A stretch of 64,000 nucleotides of DNA from assembly GCA_000720535.1 (NCBI GenBank), contig JOAZ01000003.1:186001-250000 (forward strand). Direction: 5' to 3'. A program made the translations under genes and the position numbers. The DNA comes from Streptomyces halstedii (GTDB taxonomy: Bacteria > Actinomycetota > Actinomycetes > Streptomycetales > Streptomycetaceae). Under the pieces are notes generated by a model that saw only the letters and a list, made by a program, of their open reading frames with translations, searched no databases and was not told the DNA's origin. This document shows positions 395-16,217 of the stretch, piece after piece (the first letter of the stretch is position 1; each line of letters starts with the position of its first letter).

Positions 395-1255
395 TCAGCC
401 CTCGACCGGCCAGTCCAGGACCTCGCTGATGCCGCGGCCCATCATCCACTCCAGCTCCTCGGGGCTGAAGTCCCAGTGCTTGGTGAACTGCTCGATGGTG
501 TCGGTGTAGGTGATGCCGTGGCCGAGCAGGCGGGTGATGTCCGTGCCGTAGAAGCAGCGCTGCGGGCCCATCTTGTCGACCATCTCGCGGACGTACTTCT
601 CGATGTTCTTGTTCGGGAAGGCTTCCGTGGAGTACCCCGGCAGGGCCGAGAGCTTGACGTAGATGTTGGGGTGCTCGGCGAGGTCGGCGGTCTCGGCGAC
701 CCAGTAGCCGATGGCGTCGTCCACGCAGCGGGCCATGATGCCCATGTGGTCGATGATGATCTTCAGTTCGGGGTGCCGGGCCGCGATCTGGCCGAGCTCC
801 TTCTTCCAGATCGGCGCGTGGACCATGGTGGGGACGCGCAGTTCCTCGGCGACCGGCCAGTACCAGTCGTTCGTGCCGTCGATCATCCAGTTGCGGTCCT
901 GCGGCCGGTGGAAGGTGAGGCGCGTGCCCTTGATGTGCGGGTTCTGCGCGAAGTCCTTCAGCAGGGCCGTTCCTTCGGCCTCGTTGTCCTGGGGGACGCG
1001 GGCCATGATGCCGAAGCGGTCGGGGTGGGCCTCGCACGCCTCCAGGGCGTAGTCGATGCGGTTGCCCTCCCAGGAGGGCGGAAGGATCAGCGCCCGGTTG
1101 ACACCGGCCTCGTCCATCAGCTCCAGGGCCTCCTCGTAGGAGAAGGCCTCCTCGCGGTGGCCGTTGAGCCGGATGCGCTCACGGGCTCCGGGGACCCAGG
1201 GGCGCTCCGGGGTCTCTTCCTTCCAGATGTGGATCTGGGTGTCGACCACGAACAT
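395..1255 (-). CDS. Amidohydrolase family 2 (COG3618-like) metal-dependent hydrolase
   Basis: 286-residue TIM-barrel hydrolase. The N-terminus (VVDTQIHIW) has the D-x-x-x-H form of the first metal-binding strand, and IIIDHMGIMA near residue 155 and FYGTDITR near residue 240 match conserved blocks of the amidohydrolase 2 family, which contains lactonases (for example 2-pyrone-4,6-dicarboxylate hydrolase) and decarboxylases. GAGG before the ATG serves as ribosome binding site. It lies between the LhgO-like gene (122 nt upstream) and the thiamine-diphosphate enzyme (13 nt downstream). The upstream gap contains a copy of the island's shared motif, so it may also start its own transcript. A ring-opening or decarboxylation step in aromatic catabolism is inferred; substrate unknown. 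Confidence 0.85.
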   Translation of the reverse strand: MFVVDTQIHIWKEETPERPWVPGARERIRLNGHREEAFSYEEALELMDEAGVNRALILPPSWEGNRIDYALEACEAHPDRFGIMARVPQDNEAEGTALLKDFAQNPHIKGTRLTFHRPQDRNWMIDGTNDWYWPVAEELRVPTMVHAPIWKKELGQIAARHPELKIIIDHMGIMARCVDDAIGYWVAETADLAEHPNIYVKLSALPGYSTEAFPNKNIEKYVREMVDKMGPQRCFYGTDITRLLGHGITYTDTIEQFTKHWDFSPEELEWMMGRGISEVLDWPVEG

Positions 1256-1339
1256 GGTGAGCCTCTTTCGTTTCGAGGGGCGGGGTGGTGTGCGTCAGAC
1301 GTTAGGGCGGGGAGAGGGTGTTTGCGCAGATCCGGGCGT

Positions 1340-1354
1340 GCAAGCAGTTGTTGC
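1340..1354. promoter_or_regulatory. Candidate regulator site, copy 1 (GCAA-N7-TTGC)
   Basis: GCAAGCAGTTGTTGC followed by GCG, in the gap upstream of the amidohydrolase. Its centre is 92 nt before the start codon. It has the half-site spacing (15 bp, interrupted dyad) expected of a LysR-type operator and matches the sites at 4179-4193 and 10709-10723 in sequence and orientation. Confidence 0.5.
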
Positions 1355-1377
1355 GCGAACAGCCGGGTCGGGCGGGC

Positions 1378-2589
1378 TCAGGCCGGGTCGCCGGCGCTCG
1401 CGAACACGGCTTCGCGGATGTGCTCGGCGATGGCCATGGAGGCGGTGGCGGCCGGTGAGGGCGCGTTGCGGACGGCGGTGACGCGGCCGACCCGGTGGAT
1501 GCGGAAGTCGTCCACCAGCGAGCCGTCGGGATCGAGCGCCTGGGCGCGTACCCCGGCGCCGCCGCGGACCACGTCGTCGGTGCCCACCCCGGGCACGTAG
1601 TCGCCGGCCTTGCTCATGAAGGCGGTGACGGACAGGGAGCCGCGGTACTCCTTGATGCCGGTCCGCCAGTGCTGGGCGGCCATCTTCCACACGCCCGGGT
1701 AGGCGGCGAGCCGGGCGAGGTCCCTCACGGACACGTCGGACAGCTTGTAGCCCTCCTTGGCGAGGGCCAGGACGGCGTTCGGGCCGACCTCGACCGAGCC
1801 GTCGACGCGGGGGGTGAAGTGCACCCCGAGGAAGGGGTAGCGGGGGTCGGGCACGGGGTAGACCAGTCCCCTCACCAGGTCGGTGCGGTCCGGTTTGAGC
1901 AGCATGTACTCCCCCCGGAACGGAACGATCCGGGGGTCCTCGCGGTCCCGGGCCAGCCCGGCGACGGAGTCGGACTGGAGCCCGGCGCACAGGATCAGCC
2001 GGTCGACGCGGACGCGTTCCCCGCCGGAGCCCACCTCGATCCCGCCGGGTACGTCGGTGAGGGAGGACACCGGGAACCCGAGCCTCACCTCGCCGCCGTG
2101 GGCCACGATGTCCTCGGCGAACCGCCGGGCGACGGCCGGGTAGTCGGTGATGGCGGTCCGGGGCGAGTGGAGCGCCGCGATACCGCCGGCGTTGGGCTCG
2201 ATCTCCCTGATCTCCTCCTTGGAGATCCTGCGCAGATCGGGCACGTGGTTGTTCCTGGCCCGCAGGTAGAGGTCCTCCATGCGGCCGAGCTCGTCCTCGC
2301 GGACGGCCACGACCAGTTTGCCGATCTCCCGGTACGGCAGCCGCCGTTCCTGGCAGTAGGCGCGCAGCAGGGACACGCCCCGTACGCACAGCTCGGCCTT
2401 GAGGCTGCCGGGCGCGTAGTAGATCCCGGCGTGCACCACGCCCGAGTTGTGTCCGGTCTGGTGGACGGCGACCCGCTGTTCCTTCTCGAACACCACGACC
2501 CGGGTTCCGGGGCGGCGCAGCGCGATCTCCCGGCCGGTGGCCAGACCCACGATGCCGGCGCCGACGATGCCGATCGTCTCGTCAGCCAT
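1378..2589 (-). CDS. lhgO: L-2-hydroxyglutarate oxidase-like FAD enzyme (LhgO family)
   Basis: 403-residue DAO-fold flavoprotein. The Rossmann motif GIVGAGIVGLATG lies at residues 7-19 and the signature HQTGHNSGVVHAGIYY near residues 43-58 is typical of L-2-hydroxyglutarate dehydrogenase/oxidase, which oxidises L-2-hydroxyglutarate to 2-oxoglutarate with electrons passed to the quinone pool or oxygen. GAGGAGG sits just upstream of the ATG. It follows the aldehyde dehydrogenase by 33 nt, and length matches the family. In this operon it may oxidise a 2-hydroxy acid produced in the catabolic pathway rather than serve general metabolite repair; that is inference, and the true substrate could be another 2-hydroxy diacid. 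Confidence 0.85.
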   Translation of the reverse strand: MADETIGIVGAGIVGLATGREIALRRPGTRVVVFEKEQRVAVHQTGHNSGVVHAGIYYAPGSLKAELCVRGVSLLRAYCQERRLPYREIGKLVVAVREDELGRMEDLYLRARNNHVPDLRRISKEEIREIEPNAGGIAALHSPRTAITDYPAVARRFAEDIVAHGGEVRLGFPVSSLTDVPGGIEVGSGGERVRVDRLILCAGLQSDSVAGLARDREDPRIVPFRGEYMLLKPDRTDLVRGLVYPVPDPRYPFLGVHFTPRVDGSVEVGPNAVLALAKEGYKLSDVSVRDLARLAAYPGVWKMAAQHWRTGIKEYRGSLSVTAFMSKAGDYVPGVGTDDVVRGGAGVRAQALDPDGSLVDDFRIHRVGRVTAVRNAPSPAATASMAIAEHIREAVFASAGDPA

Positions 2590-2622
2590 CGGCGTCCTCC
2601 TCTCTGTCTGGGTGACCCGCCG

Positions 2623-4080
2623 TCAGGAGCCGAAGTGGAAGGCGACGGTCTTGACGCGGGTGTAGAAGCGCAGGGCTTCGGTGCCCTGCTCCTTGAAGGC
2701 GGAGCCGGAGTCGCGGAAGCCGCCGAAGGGGTGGTGCACGTCCCAGCCCGAGGTCGTGGTGTTGACCGCGATCTGGCCGCAGTCCGCCTCGTCCGCGAAG
2801 CGGTGGGCGGCGCGCAGGTCGCGGGTGAACACGGCGGCGGCGAGCCCGAAGGCGGAGTCGTTGACCTCTTCGAGGGCCTCGTCGAGGCCGTCCACGGGGC
2901 GCAGGACGAGGACGGGCCCGAAGACCTCCTCACGCCAGACGGCCATCTGCCGTGTGACGTCCCCGAGGACGGTGGGGCTGACGTAGCAGCCGTGGGCGAG
3001 TGCCTCCTCGGCCGGGGTGCCGCCGCCCGCCAGGACGGTGGCCCCCTCCCGTACGGCGCGTTCGATGTCGGCGAGGACCCCGCTTCGCTGTCCGGGGCTG
3101 ACGAGCGGGCCGACGACGGTGGTCCCGGAGGCGCCGGGGCCCGTCCGCAGCGCGGACACCGCCTCCAGCAGCAGGCCGGTGAACTCCTCGTACACGGAGC
3201 GCTCGACCAGGACGCGGCTGGTGGCGGTGCAGCGCTGGCCGGCCTGTCCGAACGCGGCGGTCATCAGCGCCGTGACGGCGGCCGGCAGGTCGGCGTCGGC
3301 GAGGACGACCGTGGCGTTCTTGCCGCCCAGCTCGCCCTGGAAGCGGACGGAGCGGTCGGCGAGCGCGGCGCGCAGGCCCTCGCCGACGGCGTTGCTGCCG
3401 GTGAAGGTGACCGCGGCCAGGCGCGGGTCGTCGAGCAGCGGGGCGGAGATCTCGCGGCCCCGGCCGGTGACCACGCCCAGCACCCCGGCCGGCAGGCCCG
3501 CGTCGTGCAGGGCGCGGGCCAGGTGGAGTCCGGACATCGGGGTCTCGGAGGCGGGCTTGAGGACGACGGCGTTGCCGGCGGCCAGGGCGGGGGCCAGCTT
3601 GCGGGCGGGCGTCAGCAGCGGGTCGTTCCAGGGGGTGATGGCCAGGACGACTCCGAGCGGCACACTCTGGAAGCTCGTACGGGTGTCCGGGCGCGCGTCG
3701 TGCAGGAGCGTCCCGTAGCCGCCGCGGGCGAGGCCCGCGTAGTACTCGAAGAAGTCGGCGGCCTTCTGGACCTCTCCCCCGGCCTCGGCGAGGTTCTTCC
3801 CGTTCTCGGTGACCACGTCCGCGGCGATGGTGGCGGCCCGTTCGCGGAGCAGCCTGGCCGTCTCGTGGAAGACACGGGCCCGTTCGAAGGGGCTGGTGCG
3901 CCGCCAGACGTCGAAGCCCTTCTCGGCCTCGTCGTACGCGCGGGTCACCTCCCGGGCGGTCAGCGCCGGGACCCGGACGACGGGGGCGCGGGTGTCGGAC
4001 GGGTCGTGGACCGGCAGCCACGCGTCGGCCGCCACCCACTGTCCGCCGAGAAGGGTTTCCATGGTGCGCATCTGGATCAT
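2623..4080 (-). CDS. NAD(P)-dependent aldehyde dehydrogenase
   Basis: About 485 residues, full length for the ALDH superfamily. Catalytic residues are visible: Glu250 in GELGGKN and Cys284 in GQAGQRCTATSR, with the usual 34-residue spacing; the substrate/cofactor motif TPWNDP is also present. It most resembles benzaldehyde/vanillin-type dehydrogenases. The ATG at 4080 was chosen because GGGAG lies 5 nt upstream; in-frame ATGs at 4071 and 4062 are alternatives, and an open frame continues upstream without ribosome binding site. First gene of the operon running to the left edge, divergent from the ABM monooxygenase. It probably oxidises an aldehyde intermediate to the acid. Confidence 0.88.
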   Translation of the reverse strand: MIQMRTMETLLGGQWVAADAWLPVHDPSDTRAPVVRVPALTAREVTRAYDEAEKGFDVWRRTSPFERARVFHETARLLRERAATIAADVVTENGKNLAEAGGEVQKAADFFEYYAGLARGGYGTLLHDARPDTRTSFQSVPLGVVLAITPWNDPLLTPARKLAPALAAGNAVVLKPASETPMSGLHLARALHDAGLPAGVLGVVTGRGREISAPLLDDPRLAAVTFTGSNAVGEGLRAALADRSVRFQGELGGKNATVVLADADLPAAVTALMTAAFGQAGQRCTATSRVLVERSVYEEFTGLLLEAVSALRTGPGASGTTVVGPLVSPGQRSGVLADIERAVREGATVLAGGGTPAEEALAHGCYVSPTVLGDVTRQMAVWREEVFGPVLVLRPVDGLDEALEEVNDSAFGLAAAVFTRDLRAAHRFADEADCGQIAVNTTTSGWDVHHPFGGFRDSGSAFKEQGTEALRFYTRVKTVAFHFGS

Positions 4081-4124
4081 TGCTCCCGTTCGACCGCTGC
4101 GAGCGCGGTGTTTCAGAGGGGACG

Positions 4125-4145
4125 GTGTGGTCGTCACGACCACAC
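4125..4145. promoter_or_regulatory. Perfect 21-bp inverted repeat in divergent promoter
   Basis: Arms GTGTGGTCGT and ACGACCACAC flank a single central C. The dyad sits 45 nt before the aldehyde dehydrogenase start, between that gene and the divergent ABM gene, where an operator or a transcript leader hairpin would be expected. Its sequence is unlike the GCAA-N7-TTGC motif found 34 bp further on, so a second regulator is possible. Confidence 0.5.
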
Positions 4146-4178
4146 AGGAAGTCGCCCGAGGTGACCAGGCCCGCGGCG

Positions 4179-4193
4179 GCAGACATTGCTTGC
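4179..4193. promoter_or_regulatory. Candidate regulator site, copy 2 (GCAG-N7-TTGC)
   Basis: GCAGACATTGCTTGC followed by GCG. Centre is 106 nt before the aldehyde dehydrogenase start and 89 nt before the divergent ABM start. Same orientation and near-identical right half as the sites at 1340-1354 and 10709-10723. Confidence 0.45.
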
Positions 4194-4274
4194 GCGTCAC
4201 GCACGGCCCCGGGCGCGTGAACCGTGCTGGAATCGGCACCGCCCGAAGCCCTGTGCGAACAAGGAGAAGACCCC

Positions 4275-4562
4275 ATGGCATTCGCCGTCATAGCCCACTA
4301 CCGCTGCGCCCCCGCCGACGAGGACACCGTGCGCGCCGCGCTGCTGAAGATGCGTGAGCACACGCTGGCCGAGCCGGGGAACCTCGGCTACGAGGTGCAC
4401 GCGGACGTGGCGGGTCCGGGTGCCTTCGTGCTGTACGAGCGGTACGCGGACCGCTCCGGTTTCGACGCGCACGCGGCGGCCGGCTACTTCGACGAGCTGA
4501 TCGTCAGGACGGTGCGGCCGCTGCTGACCGAGCGGACGGTCACCTTCACCGACGTCCTGTAG
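4275..4562 (+). CDS. Antibiotic biosynthesis monooxygenase (ABM) family protein
   Basis: 95-residue ferredoxin-like protein of the ABM / quinol monooxygenase group: FAVIAHYRCAPADEDTV at the N-terminus, EPGNLGYEVH in the middle and FVLYERYADRSGFDAH are the typical strands and helix. Such small cofactor-free enzymes oxidise quinols or other phenolic compounds, usually as dimers. The ATG at 4275 is preceded by AAGGAG at 4261. It is the only plus-strand gene inside the catabolic island and diverges from the aldehyde dehydrogenase operon, sharing its 194-bp promoter region with two dyad elements. A role in hydroxylating an aromatic intermediate is inferred. Confidence 0.85.
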   Translation: MAFAVIAHYRCAPADEDTVRAALLKMREHTLAEPGNLGYEVHADVAGPGAFVLYERYADRSGFDAHAAAGYFDELIVRTVRPLLTERTVTFTDVL

Positions 4563-4569
4563 GGCGGAC

Positions 4570-4611
4570 GGGGCCGGGCCGTGGGCGCGGACGCCCGCCG
4601 GTCCCGGCCCC
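4570..4611. terminator. Hairpin between convergent genes
   Basis: GGGGCCGGG (4570-4578) pairs with CCCGGCCCC (4603-4611), and the intervening bases can form a second short GGGCG/CGCCC stem. It lies directly after the ABM stop and before the stop of the convergent MetE-like gene, so it can act in both directions. No U-run, as usual in Streptomyces. Confidence 0.55.
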
Positions 4612-4617
4612 GGCCGG

Positions 4618-5667
4618 TCAGAACTCGTTGCCCCAGCAGTAGCGGGCCAGGGTCTCGACCTGGATCAGCTTGCGGCTCTGCTCCTCGGCGGACAGCAGCG
4701 GCCGGCCGGCGACGTCCTCGAAGCCCCGGGACGGGCACAGCGCCATGTCCTCCAGGTCCTTGACCTCGGCGGCGGCGTCGACGCGGACCATGACCGCGTC
4801 GATCTCCTCGATCTCCGGGACGGTCGCGTCGACCGCCCCCAGGCACGCGTCCCGGTCCTCGGGCAGCGCCCGGAGCAGGTCGAGTTCGGCGGCGGTGCCC
4901 TGGTCGAACGGCAGCACCCAGCGGTCGGCCGGGACACCGGCGTACAGCCGCTCGGCCCTGGCCCGGTCCACCGACGCGGGCGCGGCGAAGCCGGGGCTGA
5001 CCCCGATCCGTACGCCTTCGGGACGCTCCCCCGGCGGCAGGGCCAGCGCCTCCACGGCCAGGGCGTCCTCGAAGGAGAGCGCGCCGACGTCACCGGGTTC
5101 GGTGGCCGTGTGGGCGAGCAGGAGCGGGTTGGTCAGCTGGACGAGGCGCACGCCCCGGGCGACGAGCAGCCGGATCTCCGCCTGGACGATCTCCGCCAGG
5201 GCCTCACCGAGTTCCCGGGCCGACGCGGGGCCGCCGGAGCCGGCCAGGGACGGGTCGAAGCAGGTGGCGGCGAGGTAGGCGGGCGAGGGCAGGGTCGCCT
5301 TGGGCGCGATCAGGGTGAGTTCGCCGAGCAGGGCGGCCCAGTCGGCGAGCAGGGGGCCGTCCGCCTTGGGCAGGGACTCGGCCACCCAGCCGGCGAGGCC
5401 GCCGGTCACCTCGCCGGTGCGGCGGAAGCCGGAGACTCCGTCGAGGACGGCGCCGCGGAAGTCCTCTCGGGGGAAGTCGCCGTCGGTGACGACCGTGGAA
5501 CGCAGCTTGCGCTGGAAGGCCACGGCCTCCGTGACGGCGGCGCGCTCGGCCTCGCGCAGCGGCCCGGTGTCCCCGTCCCGGGCGGCGCGCTCGCGGGCGG
5601 CGAGCAGGGCGGCGGGGCGGACGAGGCTGCCGTGGTGATCGATGCGGTAGTTGAACGTGTCGGCCAT
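4618..5667 (-). CDS. Stand-alone MetE-like (cobalamin-independent methionine synthase C-terminal-like) protein
   Basis: 349 residues, about the size of the C-terminal half of MetE, with the family opening YRIDHHGSLVRP and the UROD/MetE-like barrel pattern (VRLVQLTNPLLL, GVRIGVSPG, ALCPSRGFEDV). The MetE barrel binds zinc through a His-x-Cys pair, a Glu and a late Cys. A late Cys is present in ALCPSRGF, but I cannot find a clear HxC pair; the corresponding strand reads WVLPFDQG. It may therefore be a divergent methyl- or alkyl-transferase or lyase rather than methionine synthase. Last gene of the dioxygenase operon, 3 nt after the GlcG-like gene. Demethylation of a methoxylated substrate is one speculative role. 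Confidence 0.75.
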   Translation of the reverse strand: MADTFNYRIDHHGSLVRPAALLAARERAARDGDTGPLREAERAAVTEAVAFQRKLRSTVVTDGDFPREDFRGAVLDGVSGFRRTGEVTGGLAGWVAESLPKADGPLLADWAALLGELTLIAPKATLPSPAYLAATCFDPSLAGSGGPASARELGEALAEIVQAEIRLLVARGVRLVQLTNPLLLAHTATEPGDVGALSFEDALAVEALALPPGERPEGVRIGVSPGFAAPASVDRARAERLYAGVPADRWVLPFDQGTAAELDLLRALPEDRDACLGAVDATVPEIEEIDAVMVRVDAAAEVKDLEDMALCPSRGFEDVAGRPLLSAEEQSRKLIQVETLARYCWGNEF

Positions 5668-5670
5668 GGG

Positions 5671-6183
5671 TCAGGCTTCCTTTCCGGCGGGGCTGCCCGG
5701 GACTCCGGCGGGGCTGCCCGGGACTCCGGCGGGGCTGCCCGGGGCGCCCCAGGCGGCGAACTCCAGTTCGTAGCCGAGGGACGCGAGGACGTCGTCGGCG
5801 ATCTGCTGGTCCTCGTCGGCGGTGCCTCCGGCGATGCCGAGTCCGCCGATGACCTCCCCGTCCTTCTTGATCGTGACGCTGCCCTCGGTGGCGAGGATGG
5901 GCAGGGCCGCGCCGGGCAGCTGGGAGAGCTGGGAGAAGAAGACGGGCTGGCTCTCCTGCCACTTCTTCAGCATCCGGCCGGGGCGCTGCATGATCGCGGC
6001 GGTGTACGCCTTGGCCCGGGCGATGTCCGGGGTGAGCGGGCGGGCGCCGTCCGCGCGGCGGATGGCGACGGGGAAGCCGCCGGCGTCCACGACGGCCGCG
6101 CTCACGGCCTTGCCGAGCGCCTGGGCGCGCCGGTGCGCGGCGTCGATGATCTCTTCGGCGGCGTCGAGGGTGAGGGTGCTCAT
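5671..6183 (-). CDS. GlcG/HbpS family (DUF336) protein with repeat tail
   Basis: 170 residues. The core (residues 1-about 142) has the family pattern AVVDAGGFPVAIRRADGA, ARAKAYTAA and GGLGIAGGTADEDQQIADDVL seen in GlcG of glycolate operons and the haem-binding HbpS. The C-terminus carries a low-complexity tail of GSPAGVP repeats encoded by a 21-bp tandem repeat. The start codon overlaps the stop of the alpha/beta hydrolase (ATGA), and the MetE-like gene follows after 3 nt, so it is translationally coupled in the dioxygenase operon. DUF336 proteins often sit in catabolic operons as small accessory or detoxifying proteins; the precise role here is unknown. Confidence 0.83.
   Translation of the reverse strand: MSTLTLDAAEEIIDAAHRRAQALGKAVSAAVVDAGGFPVAIRRADGARPLTPDIARAKAYTAAIMQRPGRMLKKWQESQPVFFSQLSQLPGAALPILATEGSVTIKKDGEVIGGLGIAGGTADEDQQIADDVLASLGYELEFAAWGAPGSPAGVPGSPAGVPGSPAGKEA
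5684..5743. repeat. 21-bp tandem repeat, about 2.9 copies, inside a gene
   Basis: Units at 5684-5704, 5705-5725 and 5726-5743 (truncated) are identical in their shared bases. They encode the GSPAGVP heptads at the C-terminus of the GlcG-like protein. The exact identity of the units suggests recent expansion by slippage. Confidence 0.85.
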
Positions 6184-6971
6184 ACGGCTTCCTTCGGGGC
6201 GGTGAGGGTGCGGCGCAGGCGGGCGACGGCCGCGTTGTACTGCTGGGGTGTCTCCCAGTACATCGAGTGCGGGGCGCCGGGGACGATCTCCAGATGGGAG
6301 CCGGCCACCAGTTCGTGGGCGCGGGTGACGGTCTTCACGCCGAGCACCGCGTCCCGTTCCCCGGCCAGGAAGGCGATCGTGACGCCGGAGTCCCGGATCT
6401 CGTCCAGTCCGGGGCCGTCGGTGTCGAGGTTGCGCAGGTCCTGCATGGTGGCGGTGTTGAACGTGCCCATCTGCCGGAAGAGGAAGGTGAGGTCGGCCCG
6501 TTCCCGCTGGAACTCCTTGGTGAGCAGCCGGTCGATGACGGGCAGCTTGACGGCCTCGGCGCGGTCGGCCGCGGCCAGCTCCCTCAGTTCGGGGTGGCTG
6601 ATGCTGCCGAGGGAGTGGCCGAGGACGACCGAGCTGACGCGGTCGGGGCGCTCCAGGCCGGCCCGGAGCGCGGCGATCGAGCCGATGGACTGGCCGACCA
6701 CCATGGCGTCGGTCAGGTCCTCCTGGTCGAGTACGGCGACGACGTCACGGTGGAAGGTCTGGCCGTCGAACTCGGTCCGGGGCGCGGACAGGCGGGTGCT
6801 GCCGAAGCCGCGCAGGTCGAGGGTGACGACGGTGAACGCGTCGCGCAGCGCGGCCACCTGCTGCCACCAGATGGCGTGGTGGCCTCCCGAGCCGTGCACG
6901 AACACGATCGCGGGGCCGTCGCCGTGGCGTTCGTAGTAGAGGGAGGCTCCGTCGGAATCGACGTAGGGCAT
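6180..6971 (-). CDS. Alpha/beta hydrolase (possible meta-cleavage C-C hydrolase)
   Basis: 263-residue alpha/beta-hydrolase-fold enzyme. Visible features: oxyanion loop VFVHGSGGHH (residues 23-32), nucleophile Ser95 in GQSIGS, acid in GERDAVLG and catalytic His in GAPHSMYWE near the C-terminus. Size and loops fit hydrolases of meta-cleavage pathways, which split the ring-opened product of an extradiol dioxygenase, but esterases and haloperoxidase-like enzymes have the same layout. It lies 31 nt after the small VOC gene and overlaps the GlcG-like gene by 4 nt in the dioxygenase operon, which favours a catabolic C-C or ester hydrolysis role. Confidence 0.85.
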   Translation of the reverse strand: MPYVDSDGASLYYERHGDGPAIVFVHGSGGHHAIWWQQVAALRDAFTVVTLDLRGFGSTRLSAPRTEFDGQTFHRDVVAVLDQEDLTDAMVVGQSIGSIAALRAGLERPDRVSSVVLGHSLGSISHPELRELAAADRAEAVKLPVIDRLLTKEFQRERADLTFLFRQMGTFNTATMQDLRNLDTDGPGLDEIRDSGVTIAFLAGERDAVLGVKTVTRAHELVAGSHLEIVPGAPHSMYWETPQQYNAAVARLRRTLTAPKEAV

Positions 6972-7002
6972 GGGGACTCTTCTCCTTGGCGGACGCTGCG
7001 GC

Positions 7003-7374
7003 TCAGTTGGGGCGCTTGCCGTGGAAGACCAGCTCGATCATGGTGTGGTCGGGGTCGTGGATGTAGCAGAACTTGGAGTGGTTCTCGGGGCGTTCGATCG
7101 GCCGGGTGTGGCGGATGCCCAGGTCCTTGAGGTGCTCCAGGAAGTCGTCCCAGTCGTCGACCTCGACGGCGAAGTGGTAGGGCGCCATCCGGTCCATCTC
7201 CTCGACCGGGGTGAAGTGCAGGTCGAAGTTGCCCCGGGTCATCAGCACGACCCGGGTGTTGGACTTGGGCTGGATCCTCTTCATCCCGAAGACCTTGGTG
7301 TACCAGGCGGCGGTCCGGTCGGGGTCGGTGGTGGGGAAGTTGACGTGGTGGATGTAGCGGGGTTCCTTGCTCAC
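7003..7374 (-). CDS. Small VOC (glyoxalase-like) family protein
   Basis: 123-residue single-module VOC protein. IHHVNFPTTDPDRTAAWYTKVFGM at the start and FCYIHDPDHTMIELVFH at the end are the two ends of the beta-alpha-beta-beta-beta units; early His and late Glu are candidate metal ligands. The GTG at 7374 was chosen because it overlaps the stop of the upstream fumarylacetoacetate-hydrolase-family gene as GTGA, and protein similarity to the family starts just there. It may be an isomerase, lyase or small dioxygenase-like step next to the larger extradiol enzyme; the reaction is not predictable. Confidence 0.82.
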   Translation of the reverse strand: MSKEPRYIHHVNFPTTDPDRTAAWYTKVFGMKRIQPKSNTRVVLMTRGNFDLHFTPVEEMDRMAPYHFAVEVDDWDDFLEHLKDLGIRHTRPIERPENHSKFCYIHDPDHTMIELVFHGKRPN

Positions 7375-8192
7375 GGCTGCTGCCGCCTTTCGGGTGGGGT
7401 GGCTGGGGGCCGGGCGGTTTCCGCCCGGACGGAGTTCGACAGGACGCCGATGCCGCTGATCTCGACGTCGACGGTGTCGCCCGGTTCGATCTGGCAGGTG
7501 GACTCGGCGCCCATCCACAGGACGTCACCGGGGTGCACGGTGATGTACTTGGTGATCTCCACGAGGTGGTCGAAGGGGTCGAAGACCATGTCGCCGGTCG
7601 GGAACAGGGCGCGGACCTCGCCGTTGACCCGCAGGGTGGTCGTCTGCGCCAGGGCGTCGACGTCGGTCTCGATCCAGGGGCCCATCGGCTTGAAGGTGTC
7701 GCTGTTCTTGCTGCGCCAGAACGTGCGGTCCTCGTGCTGCCAGGCGCGGGCGCTGACGTCGTTGCCGATGGTCCAGCCGAAGACGGCGTCGCGGGCCTGC
7801 CGGCGGGTGGCGTACCGCAGGGTCCGGCCGATGACCGCGACCAGTTCGGGTTCGGCCTCGAAGCGGCCCCGGAGCCCGTCGGGCTTCACGATCGCGGTGC
7901 GGTGGCCGGTGAGCGCGTTGTTGGCCCGGTAGCCGGCCTCCGGGCGTTCGGGGACGACCCCGGCCGTGTCGCCCAGCAGGCGGGCGTGCTCGATGTGGCG
8001 CGGGTAGTTCATGCCGACGGCGTAGAAGACGGGCGGGACGACGGGAGGCAGCCAGCACGCCTCGTCCAGCGGGACCGTGCCGATGACCGAGGGATCGCCC
8101 TCCAGGGGCGACTCGGAGAGCAGGAGCACGGCGTCGTCCTCGACTCGGCCCCACACCGCCCGGCCGCCCATGGAGACCCGGGTGTATCGCAT
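7371..8192 (-). CDS. Fumarylacetoacetate hydrolase (FAH) family protein
   Basis: 273 residues. The C-terminal FAH fold is clear: VGMNYPRH around residue 60, FEAEPELVAVIG (metal-binding acids), GWTIGNDVSAR and SKNSDTFKPMGPW, the last containing the conserved Lys of this family. Members cleave or hydrate acylpyruvates, 2-hydroxymuconate-derived dienoates and related products of aromatic ring cleavage. The stop overlaps the start of the small VOC gene by 4 nt, and the upstream aldehyde dehydrogenase ends 6 nt before it. Position next to an extradiol dioxygenase supports a late meta-cleavage step (decarboxylase, hydratase or hydrolase); which one cannot be read from sequence. Confidence 0.88.
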   Translation of the reverse strand: MRYTRVSMGGRAVWGRVEDDAVLLLSESPLEGDPSVIGTVPLDEACWLPPVVPPVFYAVGMNYPRHIEHARLLGDTAGVVPERPEAGYRANNALTGHRTAIVKPDGLRGRFEAEPELVAVIGRTLRYATRRQARDAVFGWTIGNDVSARAWQHEDRTFWRSKNSDTFKPMGPWIETDVDALAQTTTLRVNGEVRALFPTGDMVFDPFDHLVEITKYITVHPGDVLWMGAESTCQIEPGDTVDVEISGIGVLSNSVRAETARPPATPPERRQQP

Positions 8193-8198
8193 GGCGCC

Positions 8199-9647
8199 TC
8201 AGTCCGTCAGCAGGTGGGAGACGCGCTTGGTGACCAGGTAGGCGTCCAGCCCCTCCGGTCCGCCCTCACGCCCGTAACCACTGGCCTTGACGCCCCCGGA
8301 GGGCGCCTCGTGCACGGATCCCCCGCAGTGGTTGATGGAGAGGATGCCGGCCTCGAACCCGCGGGTCAGGCGCTCGGCGGTGGCGGCGGAGCGGGTGAAG
8401 CCGTACGCGGCGAGCCCGTACGGGAGCGCGTTGGCCGTGCGCAGGGCGTCATCGAGGTCGGTGAACGGGACGACCGGCGCGAGCGGTCCGAAGGGCTCCT
8501 CGGTCATCAGCGCGGCGTCGCCGGGTACGTCGGTGAGCACCGTGGGGGCGAAGAAGTAGCCCGCGCCCGGGAGGCGTCCGCCGCCGGTGAGCACCTTCGC
8601 GCCCCGGGACACGGCGTCGGCGACCAGGGCTTCCACGGCTGTCAGCCGGCGTTCGTTGGCGAGCGGGCCCATGGTGACGCCCGCGTCGAGTCCGTTGCCG
8701 ACGACGACCGCCTCGGCGGCCCGGACGAACTCCTCCGTGAACTCGGCGAGGAGGCTCTCGTGGACCAGGAAGCGGCTCGGCGAGGTGCAGACCTGTCCGG
8801 CGTTGGCGAACTTCGCGGCGGCGGCGCGGCGGGCGGCGGCCACCGGGTCGGCGTCCTCGCACACGATGACCGGGGCGTGTCCGCCCAGTTCCATGAGGGA
8901 CGGCTTCATCTCGGCGCCGGCGGCGGCCGCCAGCAGCTTGCCGACGGGCACGGAGCCGGTGAAGGCGATCAGCCGGGTCGCCGGGTGGGCGATCAGGTGG
9001 GCGGAGACCTCGGCCGGCTCACCGAAGACCAGGTTGAGGACGCCCGGGGGCACCCCGGCGTCCTCGAAGCAGCGGACCAGTTGCACGGCGGTGCCGGGGG
9101 TCTCCTCGGAGGCCTTGACGACCAGGGAGCAGCCGGCCGAGAGCGCCGCGGCGATCTTCCGCATCGGTGAGCCCGCGGGGAAGTTCCAGGGGGTGAAGGC
9201 GGCCACGGGTCCGATGGGGGCGCGGCGTACGGAGAGCAGGGTGCCGGGCTCGGAGGGGATGACCCGCCCGTAGGCGCGGCGGGCGTCGTCGGCGTCCCAG
9301 CGCAGTGCCCCGGCGACGCGTCTGGCCTCCCCGCTCGCCTCGCGCAGCGGCTTGCCCTGCTCCAGGGTCATGATCCGCCCGACCTCGTCGGCCCGGGAGA
9401 CCAGCAGGTCGGCGGCCTTGTGGAGGATCGCGGTGCGCTCGGCGACCGGGGTGTCGCGCCAGGTCACGAATCCGGCGGCGGCCGCCTCGGCGGCGCGGTC
9501 GAGGTCGGCGGTGGTGGCGAGCGGGACGTGTCCGATCACCTCTCCGGTGGCGGGGTTCACGACCGGCGCGGTGCGCCCGGTCCCGCCCTCGCACCACTCG
9601 CCCGCTATGTACATGCGGACGGCGGGGTATTCCTGATGGGTCGTCAT
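8199..9647 (-). CDS. Aldehyde dehydrogenase (succinate-semialdehyde / hydroxymuconic-semialdehyde type)
   Basis: 482 residues, full-length ALDH. Catalytic Glu253 (MELGGHAP) and Cys287 (NAGQVCTSPSR) show normal 34-residue spacing; the N-terminal MYIAGEWCEG and TPWNFPAGSPMRKIAAAL match succinate-semialdehyde dehydrogenase-like enzymes, a group that also includes 2-hydroxymuconic semialdehyde dehydrogenases. It follows the extradiol dioxygenase by 36 nt and precedes the FAH-family gene by 6 nt, the common order of a meta-cleavage operon. It is not a duplicate of the ALDH at 2623-4080: the two differ in most motifs. Probable role is oxidation of the ring-fission semialdehyde. Confidence 0.88.
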   Translation of the reverse strand: MTTHQEYPAVRMYIAGEWCEGGTGRTAPVVNPATGEVIGHVPLATTADLDRAAEAAAAGFVTWRDTPVAERTAILHKAADLLVSRADEVGRIMTLEQGKPLREASGEARRVAGALRWDADDARRAYGRVIPSEPGTLLSVRRAPIGPVAAFTPWNFPAGSPMRKIAAALSAGCSLVVKASEETPGTAVQLVRCFEDAGVPPGVLNLVFGEPAEVSAHLIAHPATRLIAFTGSVPVGKLLAAAAGAEMKPSLMELGGHAPVIVCEDADPVAAARRAAAAKFANAGQVCTSPSRFLVHESLLAEFTEEFVRAAEAVVVGNGLDAGVTMGPLANERRLTAVEALVADAVSRGAKVLTGGGRLPGAGYFFAPTVLTDVPGDAALMTEEPFGPLAPVVPFTDLDDALRTANALPYGLAAYGFTRSAATAERLTRGFEAGILSINHCGGSVHEAPSGGVKASGYGREGGPEGLDAYLVTKRVSHLLTD

Positions 9648-9683
9648 GGGTGCGTGTGGCCTCTCACGCTCGGCGGACGGGGG

Positions 9684-10607
9684 TCATGAGGCGGGGTTCC
9701 CGGGGGTGTCACGGGAGCCGCGCAGGGTCCAGATGTGGTGGGGCGGCGTGGTCGCGTGGACGCGGGTCTCGTAGGAGTCGTCGACCCGGTCCATGTCGGC
9801 CGCGTATTCGACGCGGCCTCCGCACGGGGCGTGGATGAACCGGAAGACGTTGGAGCCGATGGTGTGCCGGCCGAGTCTGCGGGCCTCCGTCCACCCCTGG
9901 GCGATCATGTGGTTGCCGCCCTCGACGACGTCGTCGAAGCCGGGGACCTCGTAGGAGACGTGGTTGACGCCCGCGCGGTCGGGGCGGTGGCACAGCAGGA
10001 AGTTGTGCTGGTCGTCGTCGCCCTCGCACTGCATGAAGGTGCCCATCGGTTCGACGATGTCGGTGGGCCGGAAGCCGAGGCGGTCGGTGTAGAACGCCAC
10101 GGCACGCTCCCGGCCCGCCTTGGGGATGTTCAGGGCGACGTGGCACATGCGCAGCGGGCGGACCCGGCCGACGGGGCCGAGCGGCTCGTTCCAGCGGCGC
10201 ACGCTGCCCGAGACGTTGGACCGGCGCACCTCGGGTGCGGGCAGTTCGCGGGGCCGGGCGAGTGTCAGGCCCACCCCGAACCCCGTCTCGTCCACCGTGT
10301 GGTGGGTGCCGTCCGCGGTGGTGGTGACGGCGCGGTCCACGGCGACGGCGGCCACCAGCGCGTCCAGTTCCTCCGCGGTGTCGACGCCCCAGACGACTTC
10401 CCGGACGGTGGGCGGGGCTTCCAGCGGCGCGGGCAGCGACGGGTCGGGGAGGGTGTCGAGGTGCAGGGTCTGCCCGGCGAGCGTCCGGAACGAGGCGCGT
10501 TCGCCGGTACGGTCCACGAGCGCGAGTCCGAAGTCCTCGAAGAAACGCACGCACGTGTCGAGTGCGTCGACGTCGTAGGTCACCGATTCGATTCTCTGGA
10601 TTCCCAT
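9684..10607 (-). CDS. Type I extradiol ring-cleavage dioxygenase (two-domain VOC)
   Basis: 307-residue two-module VOC protein of the BphC/catechol 2,3-dioxygenase type. The C-terminal module carries the 2-His-1-carboxylate iron site: His156 (MCHVALN), His216 (GVNHVSYEV) and Glu268 (GGRVEYAADMD). The N-terminal module lacks metal ligands, as in the family. It would open a catecholic ring next to the diol using Fe(II) and oxygen. The ATG at 10607 has GAGGAG 4 nt upstream. It is the first gene of a seven-gene operon ending at 4618. The LysR gene lies upstream on the same strand, with a shared operator-like motif in the gap between them. The ring substrate is not known. Confidence 0.88.
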   Translation of the reverse strand: MGIQRIESVTYDVDALDTCVRFFEDFGLALVDRTGERASFRTLAGQTLHLDTLPDPSLPAPLEAPPTVREVVWGVDTAEELDALVAAVAVDRAVTTTADGTHHTVDETGFGVGLTLARPRELPAPEVRRSNVSGSVRRWNEPLGPVGRVRPLRMCHVALNIPKAGRERAVAFYTDRLGFRPTDIVEPMGTFMQCEGDDDQHNFLLCHRPDRAGVNHVSYEVPGFDDVVEGGNHMIAQGWTEARRLGRHTIGSNVFRFIHAPCGGRVEYAADMDRVDDSYETRVHATTPPHHIWTLRGSRDTPGNPAS

Positions 10608-10707
10608 GAACTCCTCATTTCGCGGACCGATTCCGTGGAACCGCAACGGCTGGGCTGATCGTATTTTTCGGACCCGGCGGTCTCAACGGACGCGGTGTGC
10701 CGGATAT

Positions 10708-10724
10708 CGCAATCGTTTGTTGCG
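10708..10724. promoter_or_regulatory. Candidate regulator site, copy 3 (CGCAA-N7-TTGCG)
   Basis: Perfect 5-bp dyad CGCAA / TTGCG with a 7-bp spacer, centred 109 nt before the dioxygenase start codon, in the 153-bp gap between the LysR gene and the dioxygenase operon. Best-preserved copy of the motif shared with 1340-1354 and 4179-4193. Confidence 0.55.
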
Positions 10725-10760: not shown

Positions 10761-11672
10761 TCACCGGGTGATCGCGGCGATGGGATTGCCGGAGAACCAC
10801 TGGGTGAGGAAGTCCAGGAATACGGTGACCTTGCGCGGGGTGTCCTGTCCGGGGCCGTAGATCGCGTAGAGGGGGCGGTCGGGGACGGCCAATTCGGGCA
10901 GGAGGACCTGGAGGGCTCCGGACAGCAGGTCGTCGTAGGCGGACCGCTGCGGCAGCAGGGCGATGCCCCGGCCGTGCACGGCGGCCTTCTGGAGGGCGAT
11001 GTAGGAGTTGGACGAGAAGGCCACGTTGCGGATCTTGTGCAGGGTGCTGGCGTGGCCGTGGCCTATCCGCCAGACCGGGTCGTTCACATGGACCAGGCAG
11101 TCGTGGGCCGCGATGTCGTTGGGGTGGCCGAGGGTGCCGTGCCGTTCCAGGTACTCCTGGGACGCGCACAGGACGAACGGCAGCGAGGAGACCTTCTTGA
11201 GCCGGACGCTGGAGTCCCGCAGGTCCCGGGTGTGGAAGGCGATGTCGAAACCGCTGTCCAGGAAGTCGTAGGTCCGGTCGGACATGCCGCCGAGCTCGAA
11301 GCGCACCACGATCTTCGGGTGCGCGGCCGAGAAGGCCGCGATGGCGTCCCCGAGGTCCAGGCTGCCGATCCACTTCGGGCAGATGATGCTGAGCGTCCCC
11401 TCCGCCCGGTCGTGGCGCCGCGCGAGGGTGGCGTCCTCCGCCTCGATCTCGTCGAGGATGCGCGCGGCGAACTCCGCGTAGCGCCGGCCGGGCTCCGTGA
11501 GGCTGACGGAGCGGGCGGTGCGGTTGACCAGCCGCACACCGATCTGCCGCTCCAGCTCGGCGACGTGGCGCGAGACGAGTGACCCGGAGGAGCTCAGTTG
11601 CTTGGCCGCTCCGCTGAAGCTGCCGATGTGGGCGACGGTCACGAAGCTGCGCATGAGAAGCAGGCGGTCCAT
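10761..11672 (-). CDS. LysR-family transcriptional regulator
   Basis: 303 residues, standard LysR length. The N-terminal winged helix-turn-helix is clear (MRSFVTVAHIGSFSGAAKQL, then SRHVAELERQIGVRLVNRT) and the remainder is the LysR effector-binding fold (SIICPKWIG, VLCASQEYL, GIALLPQRSAYDDL). GGAGGAA precedes the ATG. It is transcribed in the same direction as, and directly upstream of, the dioxygenase operon, and is the only obvious regulator of the catabolic island. The GCAA-N7-TTGC sites upstream of the island's operons have the geometry of LysR-type operators, so it is the natural candidate to bind them with a pathway intermediate as inducer (inference). Confidence 0.9.
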   Translation of the reverse strand: MDRLLLMRSFVTVAHIGSFSGAAKQLSSSGSLVSRHVAELERQIGVRLVNRTARSVSLTEPGRRYAEFAARILDEIEAEDATLARRHDRAEGTLSIICPKWIGSLDLGDAIAAFSAAHPKIVVRFELGGMSDRTYDFLDSGFDIAFHTRDLRDSSVRLKKVSSLPFVLCASQEYLERHGTLGHPNDIAAHDCLVHVNDPVWRIGHGHASTLHKIRNVAFSSNSYIALQKAAVHGRGIALLPQRSAYDDLLSGALQVLLPELAVPDRPLYAIYGPGQDTPRKVTVFLDFLTQWFSGNPIAAITR

Positions 11673-11876: not shown

Positions 11877-12833
11877 TCAGGACTTCTTCTTCTCGACGGA
11901 GCAGTACTTCGGTGCGCTGTTGACGTTGTCGGCGGTGATGAGGCTGATCGGCGTCATGGCGATCTTGTCGGTCTTCTGCTCGTCGAGCAGTTTGATCGCG
12001 TTGGTGACGGCGATCTTCCCGGTGGTCATGGCGGAGTTGGCGACGGTCGCGGCGAAGCGGCCGTCCTTGACCGCGGCCAGGCCGTCGTCGGTCCCGTTGA
12101 CCGTCACGATCTTCACATCGGCCCCGGCCGCTTGGAAGGCCTTGAGGGCACCGAAGGCCATCTCCTCGTTCGCCACGAAGGCGTACGACATCTTCGGGTG
12201 GGCCTGGATCATGTTCTCGGCGACGTCCTGGGCCTTGGCGGCGTTGAACATGCCCGGCTGGTTCGCGACCACCTTCGCGTTGTCCGGGAGGGCCTTGGTG
12301 AAGCCGTTGACCAGCAGGTCGGAGGCGGCACCGGGGGCTCCGGCGATCACTCCGACCTCGACGGACGAGCCCGCCGCGTCCTTCTCCACGTAGCCGGCGT
12401 CGAGTTCGCCGACCTGCTTGAGGTCGACCACCACCGCGCCGAGGATGTCGCTGGGGTCGTCGGTCACCACGGACGTCAGGAAGATGGGTATGTTCGCGCT
12501 CTTGGCCTTGGCGATGTCCCCCTTGAGCGCGTCGACGTTGACCGTCTGCACGATGAGGGCGTCGACGTTGCGGGAGATCATGTCCTCGATGTTGGACAGC
12601 TCCGTACCAGGGTTCTGGTGGGAGTTGGCCGTGAAGATCTTGGCGTTCCTCGCCTCGGCGGTGTCCTTCACGGACGCCTGGAGACAGGTGTGGAACTCGG
12701 TGTCGCCGCCGTTGACGAAGCCGAGCGAGACCGCCCCGTCGCCGGAGTCGGCGCCGCAGCCGCTCAGTACGAGAGCGAGCGCGGCGGCGGCAGAGGCGGC
12801 GGTGGCTCTGCGGGAGCGAACGGAAACGTTCAT
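11877..12833 (-). CDS. Sugar-type ABC transporter substrate-binding lipoprotein (RbsB-like)
   Basis: 318 residues. N-terminus MNVSVRSRRATAASAAAALA followed by LVLSGCGA is a lipoprotein signal with lipobox LSGC, so it should be lipid-anchored outside the membrane. The rest is the periplasmic-binding-protein type 1 fold of ribose/galactose/xylose binders: DMISRNVDALIVQTVNVDALKG, then VNGTDDGLAAVKDGRFAATVANS near the C-terminus. GGCCCTCCC (complement GGGAGGGCC) precedes the ATG. Last gene of a CMD - ATPase - permease - binding protein operon. Despite its class, the ligand may be a polyol, furanose or aromatic glycoside rather than a free sugar, given its place in the catabolic island. Confidence 0.87.
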   Translation of the reverse strand: MNVSVRSRRATAASAAAALALVLSGCGADSGDGAVSLGFVNGGDTEFHTCLQASVKDTAEARNAKIFTANSHQNPGTELSNIEDMISRNVDALIVQTVNVDALKGDIAKAKSANIPIFLTSVVTDDPSDILGAVVVDLKQVGELDAGYVEKDAAGSSVEVGVIAGAPGAASDLLVNGFTKALPDNAKVVANQPGMFNAAKAQDVAENMIQAHPKMSYAFVANEEMAFGALKAFQAAGADVKIVTVNGTDDGLAAVKDGRFAATVANSAMTTGKIAVTNAIKLLDEQKTDKIAMTPISLITADNVNSAPKYCSVEKKKS

Positions 12834-12889
12834 GGGAGGGCCTTTCGAACGGTACGGGCGGGGATACGGGCAAAGGGGTACGGCGGCCG

Positions 12890-13900
12890 TCAGTGCGGGG
12901 AGGACTTCTTGTGGAGCTGGTTGGCGATCGCGGCGACGAGGAGGACGGCGCCCACGGAGATCTGCTGGAAGTAGCTGGACACCTGGAGGAGGTTGAGCGC
13001 GTTGGCCACGACGCCGAGGAGCACCACACCCAGACAGGTGCCGATGACGGTGCCGAAGCCGCCGGCCAGCATGGTGCCGCCGATCACGACCGAGGCGACC
13101 GCGGTGAGCTGGAGCTGGAGGCCGCCGGTGCCGGGGCTGCTCGCTCCGAGCCGGGACAGCAGCATCAGCCCGGCGAGGCCGGACAGGGCGCCGGCCAGGC
13201 TGTAGAGCACCAGCTTCCGCCGGTTGACGTCGATGCCGCTGAGCCGGGCGACGTGTTCGTTGCCGCCGATGGCGAAGGCGTCGCGGCCGAAGACGGTGAA
13301 CTTCATGACCAGGCCGACGACGAGGAGCACCAGGACCGCCACGATCAGCAGGTTCGGCAGGCCGAGCGTCTTCCCGGTGCCGAGCGCGGACAGATGGTCC
13401 CCGATGGAGACGCTGAGCCCGTTGAGCACCAGGAGGGCGACCCCGTCCAGCAGGGTCGCGGTGGCGAGGGTGGCCACGAAGGGCGCCACGTTCGTATAGG
13501 TCACGACGAGGCCGTTGACGAGTCCGATGGCGGTGGCCAGCAGGAGTGACACGATCACCGTGAAGGCGGTGGAGCGGCCGTCCGCGAGGAACTGGGCGGC
13601 GACGGCGGTGGTGACCGCCGCGTTGCTGCCCATCGAGAAGTCCATGCCCCCGGCGGTCATCAGCAGGGTGAGCCCGGCGGCCAGGACGGCGACCACGCTG
13701 ACCTGCCGCAGGACGTTGACCAGGTTGGTGGAGCTGGCGAACGAGTCGGTCTGCACCCCGGCGAACACGATGACGACGACGAGTACGGCTATCAGGCCGG
13801 CGTGCGGGACGCCGGTGAGTGCGCGGAAGGGCCCCGCCGTCCGGCTGGCGTGCGTGGGGCTCTTGGTTCCGGGTGTCTCCGGCGGAGCGGTGAGGCTCAT
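12890..13900 (-). CDS. Sugar-type ABC transporter permease (RbsC-like)
   Basis: 336-residue membrane protein with about nine hydrophobic segments (for example GLIAVLVVVIVFAGVQT, AVLAAGLTLLMTAGGMDFS, LIVAVLVLLVVGLVM). The conserved loop GGNEHVARLSGIDVNRRKLVLYSLAGALSGLAG is the ATPase-contact region of the ribose permease family. Start at 13900 overlaps the ATPase stop as ATGA, so the two are translationally coupled; the binding protein starts 56 nt after its stop. As in this family, a homodimer would form the channel. Confidence 0.88.
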   Translation of the reverse strand: MSLTAPPETPGTKSPTHASRTAGPFRALTGVPHAGLIAVLVVVIVFAGVQTDSFASSTNLVNVLRQVSVVAVLAAGLTLLMTAGGMDFSMGSNAAVTTAVAAQFLADGRSTAFTVIVSLLLATAIGLVNGLVVTYTNVAPFVATLATATLLDGVALLVLNGLSVSIGDHLSALGTGKTLGLPNLLIVAVLVLLVVGLVMKFTVFGRDAFAIGGNEHVARLSGIDVNRRKLVLYSLAGALSGLAGLMLLSRLGASSPGTGGLQLQLTAVASVVIGGTMLAGGFGTVIGTCLGVVLLGVVANALNLLQVSSYFQQISVGAVLLVAAIANQLHKKSSPH

Positions 13901-15435: not shown

Positions 15436-15473
15436 GGCCGTACTCCCTTCCGTACATGACTGGGGGTGGGCTG

Positions 15474-16067
15474 TCACGGCTTCGGCCGGTCTCCGTCACC
15501 GGTGACGCGCGCGAAGCCGCGGATGTCGGGGAACGGGGGCTCGCGGTCGGCCTGGAGGTCGACCTGGAAGGCGTTCAGGCACATGCCGAGCATCGTGAAG
15601 TTGCCCAGGGACCCGATGGCGTCGACCAGGGCCGCCGAGCCGAAGTGGGCGTGCGCGCGGGCGAAGGTGTCGTCCGAGACGAAGTGGGTCGCCAGCAGTT
15701 CCTCGCAGAAGGCGTGGAACGCGGTGTCCGCCTCGTCGGTGAATTCGGGTGTGCGCCGTTCGGCGATGGCCTGCACGGCCTTTTCGGGAACGCCGGCCTC
15801 GACCGCGGCGGCCACGTGCGCGTTCCAGGAGTACTGCGCGTCGAAATGGCGTGCGGCCATCAGCAGGGTCAGTTCCCGCAGGCGCTTCGGCAGAGTCGAC
15901 TCGAAACGCGCGAAGGCGCCGAGTGATTCGACGCGCTCGCACAGTTCGGGGCTGTGCAGCCATACCCGGAACGGCCCGCGCACACCGCCGCGGCGTGCTG
16001 TGATCCTCGCGTGGAGTTCCCGCTGACGGTCGTTCATCTCTTCGGCGGCGAGTACGGGGAGTCTCAT
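15474..16067 (-). CDS. Carboxymuconolactone decarboxylase (CMD)-like protein
   Basis: 197 residues of the CMD/AhpD-like helical fold: LRELTLLMAARHFDAQYSWNAHVAAAVEAGV is the signature helix pair. The AhpD redox pair CxxC is absent; the position reads YSWNAH, so a peroxidase role is unlikely and a lactone-decarboxylase-like or accessory role is more likely. First gene of the sugar-type ABC operon, ending where the ATPase begins. The ATG at 16067 is preceded by AGG, and homology to the family starts there, although the frame is open further upstream. Divergent from the cupin gene. Confidence 0.8.
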   Translation of the reverse strand: MRLPVLAAEEMNDRQRELHARITARRGGVRGPFRVWLHSPELCERVESLGAFARFESTLPKRLRELTLLMAARHFDAQYSWNAHVAAAVEAGVPEKAVQAIAERRTPEFTDEADTAFHAFCEELLATHFVSDDTFARAHAHFGSAALVDAIGSLGNFTMLGMCLNAFQVDLQADREPPFPDIRGFARVTGDGDRPKP

Positions 16068-16165
16068 GGGAGTTGCCTGCCTTTCATCCGGTGACACGGG
16101 TGGTTCGACCGTGCAATGGGAGCCGACCGTACCCCCGAGTCGGCGAGGCTCACCCCTCCCGGAAC

Positions 16166-16180
16166 GCAAGGTAAAGGTGC
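16166..16180. promoter_or_regulatory. Possible weak fourth copy of the island motif (GCAA-N7-GTGC)
   Basis: GCAAGGTAAAGGTGC, centred 106 nt before the CMD-like start, the same distance as the other copies. The right half reads GTGCAC instead of TTGCGC and the spacer does not match, so support is mostly positional. Confidence 0.3.
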
Positions 16181-16217
16181 ACGCCGGATGCCCCTCGATT
16201 CATGGTTCCGGCGCCTA

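Follow-up and report, generated by a model that had tools for sequence, protein, structure and literature searches.

A conserved dyad as the predicted operator of a regulon in a LysR-containing catabolic gene cluster of Streptomyces halstedii

A catabolic gene cluster and its four candidate sites

We have analysed a 64-kb stretch of the 7.74-Mb genome of Streptomyces halstedii (G000:C3:186001-250000, hereafter the window), which holds a catabolic gene cluster, a gene for a LysR-type regulator, and four copies of an interrupted dyad, GCAA-N7-(T/C)TGC, that are predicted here to be operators. The cluster begins with a divergent cupin-type gene (16255..16659, plus strand), followed on the minus strand by a CMD-like gene and a ribose-type ABC importer consisting of ATPase, permease, and binding protein (11877..16067, named from translations). 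Next come the lysR gene (10761..11672, minus strand) and the dioxygenase operon. The first gene of this operon encodes an extradiol-type dioxygenase of the glyoxalase/dioxygenase superfamily (9684..10607, minus strand, NCBIfam scores under the cut-off), and the remaining genes (4618..9647, minus strand) encode aldehyde dehydrogenase 2, a FAH-family protein, a VOC protein, an alpha/beta hydrolase, an HbpS-like protein, and a MetE-like protein, according to Pfam, NCBIfam, and the translations. The cluster is completed by a divergent gene for an antibiotic-biosynthesis-monooxygenase (ABM) domain protein (4275..4562, plus strand), aldehyde dehydrogenase 1 with an L-2-hydroxyglutarate-oxidase-like FAD enzyme (1378..4080, minus strand), an amidohydrolase-2 family enzyme (395..1255, minus strand), and, next after it, a thiamine pyrophosphate (TPP) enzyme lying partly outside the window (L031:18142-19881).

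All these names are at family level, those of the cupin, permease, and ATPase come from reading the translations, and operon membership is taken from gene spacing and direction. The FAD enzyme is the only cluster protein above an NCBIfam cut-off (528 bits vs 299). The CMD-like gene has only a weak peroxidase-related NCBIfam match, the importer binding protein is RbsB-like but under the cut-off, and the cupin has no NCBIfam match at 1e-20. Against PDB sequences, the dioxygenase and the MetE-like protein show distant matches only, the amidohydrolase shows none at 1e-5, and the TPP enzyme none at 1e-30. Taken together, the cluster enzymes point to the cleavage of a ring or to the breakdown of sugar acids.

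Site 1, with the core GCAACAAACGATTGC, stands before the dioxygenase operon (10709..10723, minus strand) and scores 30.9 bits. Site 2 (GCAACAACTGCTTGC, 1340..1354, minus strand, 15.0 bits) precedes the amidohydrolase gene, and site 3 (GCAAGCAATGTCTGC, 4179..4193, minus strand, 11.9 bits) lies between the divergent aldehyde dehydrogenase 1 and ABM genes. The weak site 4 (GCAAGGTAAAGGTGC, 16166..16180, plus strand) is found between the divergent CMD and cupin genes, where its 7.1 bits remain under the 8-bit cut-off. These scores come from a weight matrix that contains no window sequence. A preliminary description of this DNA had reported the first three sites as GCA(A/G)-N7-TTGCGC, and they are indeed exact matches at the positions that it gave; GCARN7TTGCGC has no other match in the window. 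If one mismatch is allowed, 15 matches are present in the window while 8.5 are expected, and 3 of 100 shuffles reach this number.

The distances to the start codons were also correctly described, as it is 92 nt from the centre of site 2 (1347) to the downstream ATG at 1255, 106 nt from that of site 3 (4186) to the ATG at 4080, and 109 nt from that of site 1 (10716) to the ATG at 10607. The weak fourth copy, 106 nt before the CMD start, had been rightly counted in the set; since it scores below the cut-off, it owes its membership to the relatives, among which this region is matched in 41 of 65. On its other side, site 4 is 82 nt away from the start of the divergent cupin gene (16255), and it scores best when read toward that gene. 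A common orientation, as had been proposed, holds for sites 1-3 but not for site 4.

Conservation of the dyad and its spacing to promoter elements

One scan for relatives of the dioxygenase gave 77 loci, mostly from Streptomyces, with Actinoplanes, Actinomadura, Nocardia, Microbacterium, and Frankia among the other genera, and the gene order is retained in most of them. As the dioxygenase of one locus (L139, 37% identity) is under the 45% cut, 76 loci with a usable dioxygenase remain. In the dioxygenase upstreams, all eight letters of GCAA-N7-TTGC are found in 59 of the 76 loci, seven in 5, six in 10, and five in 2, and the majority letters at these sites read GCGCAAGAAACGATTGCGCA. When the same upstreams were resampled with a first-order Markov model, all eight letters appeared in 0/760 and seven or more in 47/760, so that some of the loci with fewer letters may match by chance. 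Conservation before the orthologous operons, which the preliminary description had named as its test, is found in Streptomyces and also in loci of Actinoplanes, Actinomadura, Actinocorallia, Planomonospora, and Nocardia. In the Frankia-type loci L130, L132, L133, and L157-L159, the dioxygenase upstream is without the motif. By eye, several Frankia-type loci have a dyad like GCATC(T/A)TTAG..TTCGC at a similar promoter distance, which is possibly a diverged operator.

The weight matrix was built from 74 dioxygenase-promoter sites of the relatives with at least 6 letters, and includes neither window sequence nor any other promoter; 15 of the 74 sites have only 6 or 7 of the 8 letters, and some of these may be chance matches. 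Denominators are the loci with the respective gene at no less than 45% identity in the expected direction. At 8 bits or more, the matrix finds matches in 51/54 amidohydrolase regions, 52/55 regions between aldehyde dehydrogenase 1 and ABM, and 41/65 regions between CMD and cupin; at 10 bits, 51, 41, and 29 loci are left, respectively. Matches at 8 bits are rare in the control upstreams: 4/72 for lysR, 1/47 for sbp, 0/45 for the ATPase, 0/73 each for aldehyde dehydrogenase 2 and the FAH-family gene, 0/72 for VOC, 1/73 for the alpha/beta hydrolase, 1/72 for the HbpS-like gene, 0/58 for the MetE-like gene, and 0/56 for the FAD enzyme. With the matrix columns shuffled (200 times), the mean is no more than 1.6 matches per region, with 0.7 for the amidohydrolase region and 0.9 for each of the two divergent ones; the highest count from any single shuffled matrix is 6, 13, and 12 for these three, respectively, and one control region has as many as 60. 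Because the loci share ancestry, they are not independent draws. Overall, these sequence comparisons show that one dyad family, GCAA-N7-(T/C)TGC, is kept at four places of the cluster, and the earlier proposal of a regulon is supported by the conserved sites before four cluster regions of the relatives.

We have then considered where the sites lie relative to promoter elements read from the sequence. The dioxygenase promoter has a -35-like hexamer TTGAGA (10681..10686, minus strand) and a -10-like hexamer TACGAT (10658..10663, minus strand) 45 nt after site 1, which places the site upstream of the -35 hexamer. The offsets are shorter at the other promoters: 35 nt from site 2 to TAACGT of the amidohydrolase promoter (1299..1304, minus strand), 34 nt from site 3 to TGGAAT on the ABM side (4228..4233, plus strand), and 35 and 34 nt, respectively, to TAACGT of the cupin promoter (16216..16221, plus strand) and TACGGT of the CMD promoter (16126..16131, minus strand). 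For aldehyde dehydrogenase 1, a weak hexamer TGTGGT (4139..4144, minus strand, offset 34) is a possible -10 element.

The same arrangement is seen in the relatives. At the dioxygenase, 51 of the 60 loci compared combine a TTG-type -35 element, which starts 21-22 nt past the site, with a TA(C/G)G(C/A)T -10 element, and TANNNT occurs at offset 44-46 in 55 of the 66 relatives having the site. At offset 34 or 35, TANNNT is found in 51/51 (amidohydrolase), 38/39 (cupin), and 40/41 (CMD) relatives having the site, and TGGAAT on the ABM side in 47/52. The distance to the start codon, which had been assumed to be equal, varies among the relatives from 19 to 208 nt for aldehyde dehydrogenase 1 and from 86 to 187 nt for the amidohydrolase, with the start codons of the relatives extrapolated from tblastn. 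Judged from the aligned loci, what is conserved is thus the spacing to the predicted -10 hexamer rather than that to the start codon.

If the hexamer is taken as -12 to -7 of the transcript, the site centre would be at about -64 to -66 at the dioxygenase and at about -54/-55 at the other five promoters. The offsets of the two groups differ by 9-12 bp (the commonest values are 34 and 46), which is near one helical turn. Each of the two divergent regions holds one dyad that faces a promoter on both sides; in all, six promoters are probably controlled from the four sites. In the consensus lines, five of the six promoters are by eye without a clear -35 hexamer, as expected of activator-dependent promoters. 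In addition, a GCAA half-site lies 14-15 nt downstream of the core in 38/51 amidohydrolase promoters, where it may act as an activation half-site.

The LysR-type protein as candidate binder

Based on the above analyses, we consider it quite probable, on sequence evidence, that the LysR protein encoded at 10761-11672 binds the motif as the operator of a single cluster-wide regulon and activates six promoters. In such a regulon, the dyad GCAA-N7-(T/C)TGC would be the operator throughout the catabolic cluster. The LysR-type protein would bind the predicted sites, sense a compound of the pathway, and activate the promoters of the dioxygenase, amidohydrolase, aldehyde dehydrogenase 1, ABM, cupin, and CMD genes, with a single dyad between divergent genes serving both sides.

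The LysR protein is likely the binder, an assignment made from context. A LysR gene had been noted in the island before, and its product shows the Pfam HTH_1 and LysR_substrate domains, both over the cut-off. Of the 17 mapped cluster genes, no other encodes a regulator, though the flanks of the 77 loci were not scanned for others, and a LysR homologue of at least 45% identity is present in 75 of the 76 loci. As for its distribution, the dioxygenase at no less than 72% identity occurs in 16 of 199 genomes of the genus sample, own genome included, and the LysR protein in 28 of 392 genomes of a larger draw, whose positives within the first draw are the same 16 dioxygenase genomes (the LysR negatives are partly itemised). 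In the sampled genomes, regulator and cluster thus occur together. Among loci with a LysR at least 75% identical, the dioxygenase site reaches 15 bits or more in 60/60, while this proportion drops to 1/15 for LysRs of 45-75% identity (7/15 at 8 bits). This relation between LysR identity and site strength fits co-divergence of the protein and its site.

Some genomes also have LysR paralogues, 76-84% identical, in other gene settings, with a metallo-beta-lactamase-fold protein as neighbour in L190, L194, and L195 and ABC-importer genes in others. A motif match lies within 500 nt of 5 of 8 such paralogues, a number reached by 3 of 500 shuffled matrices.

Two observations on additional copies are worth giving here. 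On contig L153, which also bears the main cluster, another lysR copy, which has a motif match of 17 bits at 9766, is flanked by two proteins with an aminomethyltransferase folate-binding domain (8271-9689, minus strand, and 11963-13303, plus strand). The first of them is DesA/LigM-like, under the NCBIfam cut-off, and one might guess from this neighbour that the substrates are O-methylated aromatics. In L191, a 26-bit match at 2589, far from where that genome has its main cluster, follows a second CMD-like gene and precedes a second binding protein.

On the other hand, several observations weigh against operators of this kind bound by the LysR protein. Firstly, the link between LysR identity and site strength follows descent, and the sites concerned are within the training set of the matrix. 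Frankia-type LysRs from loci without the motif have kept an almost identical recognition helix. Of about 2000 random 1-kb pieces drawn from the paralogue loci, 204 contain a match, and the paralogues in L190 and L192 share one identical match, with a core starting with ACAA rather than GCAA, so that not every paralogue case is independent or perfect. Secondly, the -10 element of aldehyde dehydrogenase 1 is weak: TANNNT is at the expected offset in only 6/45 relatives, and TGTGTT-like hexamers are spread over offsets 35 (27), 33 (21), 34 (7), and 32 (4), as overlapping counts in 52 loci. At the five promoters other than that of the amidohydrolase, the GCAA half-site is nearly absent (2/67, 1/52, 0/52, 0/41, and 3/41), that is, no second (activation) site is seen there, and the predicted position at about -54/-55 deviates from the usual -65. 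Thirdly, the sites do not follow the T-N11-A rule of LysR operators, as core position 2 is never T in the 74 dioxygenase sites (73 have C), and 69 of them have G at position 14. Finally, in the own genome, two sites inside likely coding open reading frames (ORFs) have full 21-mer scores of 17.3 and 17.1, higher than those of sites 2-4; as a result, genome-wide uniqueness is claimed for site 1 only.

The dyad had been called typical of LysR-type operators, and this holds for its interrupted form of ~15 bp, GCAA-N7-TTGC, but not for T-N11-A. The typical LysR primary site is described as lying near -65 and containing T-N11-A (PMC4834489), and departures from this rule have been reported (PMC12609908). 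Usually, though not necessarily, a lysR gene is divergent from its target; here it lies on the same strand as the dioxygenase and upstream of it in the window and in most loci, and on the opposite strand in L122, L124, and L137. A comparison can be made with CatR, ClcR, TfdR, and AphT of aromatic catabolism in Betaproteobacteria, which are likewise LysR proteins encoded with catabolic genes, with inverted-repeat operators studied by genome comparison (PMC6449761). Those operators follow T-N11-A, absent here, and the CatR, ClcR, and TfdR genes are divergent from their operons (PMC6449761), whereas the present lysR has the direction of the dioxygenase gene.

ThnR of tetralin degradation in Sphingopyxis is likewise one LysR activator of several promoters with a divergent pair, and its primary site is at -64 at three promoters and at -76, one helix turn off, at the fourth (PMC4834489). 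The differences are that each divergent ThnR promoter has its own site, while one dyad lies between both promoters here, and that the odd ThnR site is further away, while here the shift would be toward the promoter, to about -54/-55. CutR of Mycobacterium sp. JC1 is also an actinobacterial LysR with a repeat other than T-N11-A (T-n12-A), located at -60; no suitable activation site was found for it, and it binds as a dimer (PMC12609908). CutR differs in its operator sequence and is reported to act on the carbon monoxide dehydrogenase genes (PMC12609908). For the LysR protein itself, the best NCBIfam models belong to the YafC / AaeR / GcvA group and the best PDB sequence match is 3hhg; as all its NCBIfam scores are far under the cut-off, no specific name applies.

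More tentatively, and with odds that we put on the lower side, one symmetric operator at -54/-55 could drive both divergent starts and be shifted by about one helical turn (-64 to -66) at the dioxygenase. In this case, activation would come about through a dimer or face-of-helix rules, with neither a dedicated second site nor T-N11-A.

If confirmed, this would be a compact and testable regulon, in which one candidate regulator would act through four predicted operators on six promoters, in a cluster conserved in many Actinobacteria. Co-regulation can help define the pathway, the sites are possible biosensor parts, and LysR action from different helical positions could be examined within one system. 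In the listed titles and abstract openings of open-licence PMC articles, motif, regulator, and cluster are not named, and the motif string itself is unmatched there.

Other explanations and the frequency of the pattern in the genome

The strongest competing explanation, which we regard as rather unlikely, is that the operator is real but bound by a regulator encoded elsewhere, e.g., of the IclR, GntR, LacI, or TetR family, with the LysR protein having other targets. The absence of the canonical T-N11-A and the site near -55 at five promoters would agree with this, and so would a LacI-family gene in L153 (13425-14369) that adjoins the cluster and has a 14-bit match (13340) 85 nt before it. However, this LacI gene is seen in one locus only, the LysR protein is the sole regulator among the mapped genes and travels with the cluster, and several of its paralogues elsewhere have a motif match nearby.

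Some LysR proteins act as repressors, and on this general ground, with no observation specific to the cluster in its favour, the LysR protein might bind the sites mainly to repress, with an inducer releasing the pathway. This is somewhat less probable still, as the sites are 34-46 nt upstream of the -10 hexamers with no overlap, and five promoters are by eye without a clear -35 hexamer.

That the three sites are a chance resemblance is scarcely credible, although the frequency of the pattern in the own genome gives it some ground. The exact pattern has 39 matches in the genome, fewer than the 86 of the reversed control, and YGCAAN7YTGC has 121 vs 295. The preliminary description had held that an equal frequency elsewhere in the genome would refute the motif; the outcome is neutral, as the exact string has other matches in the genome but no excess of them. 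At the genome rate, the probability of at least three exact matches is 0.0044 in 64 kb and ~2e-9 in an estimated 470 bp of intergenic DNA, values that flatter the pattern because it was picked after the sites had been seen. When scored with matrix columns 2-17, sites 1-3 outrank 93 other YGCAAN7YTGC matches (of 121). The case against chance rests on the relatives, where the four sites and their spacing are conserved and the out-of-sample regions are matched in 51/54, 52/55, and 41/65 loci. Just as hard to believe is that the dyad, close to the promoter as it is, belongs to a transcribed leader structure or a sigma-factor promoter element, as it lies upstream of the dioxygenase -35 hexamer and 34-46 nt before the -10 hexamers.

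A crude ORF filter, by which 21 of 30 fetched exact-pattern sites (of the 39) were coding, was discarded, as it called site 3 coding. For the regulon proposed here, members are claimed within the cluster and none beyond it. Elsewhere in the own genome, at L242:1441, a near-perfect palindrome around GTGCAAAGTCAAGTTGCAC is seemingly intergenic, and is perhaps the site of another regulator. To the left of the window, beyond the TPP enzyme (L031:7728-15321), there are siderophore-like genes, with frames resembling isochorismate synthase and non-ribosomal peptide synthetase, as named from their translations.

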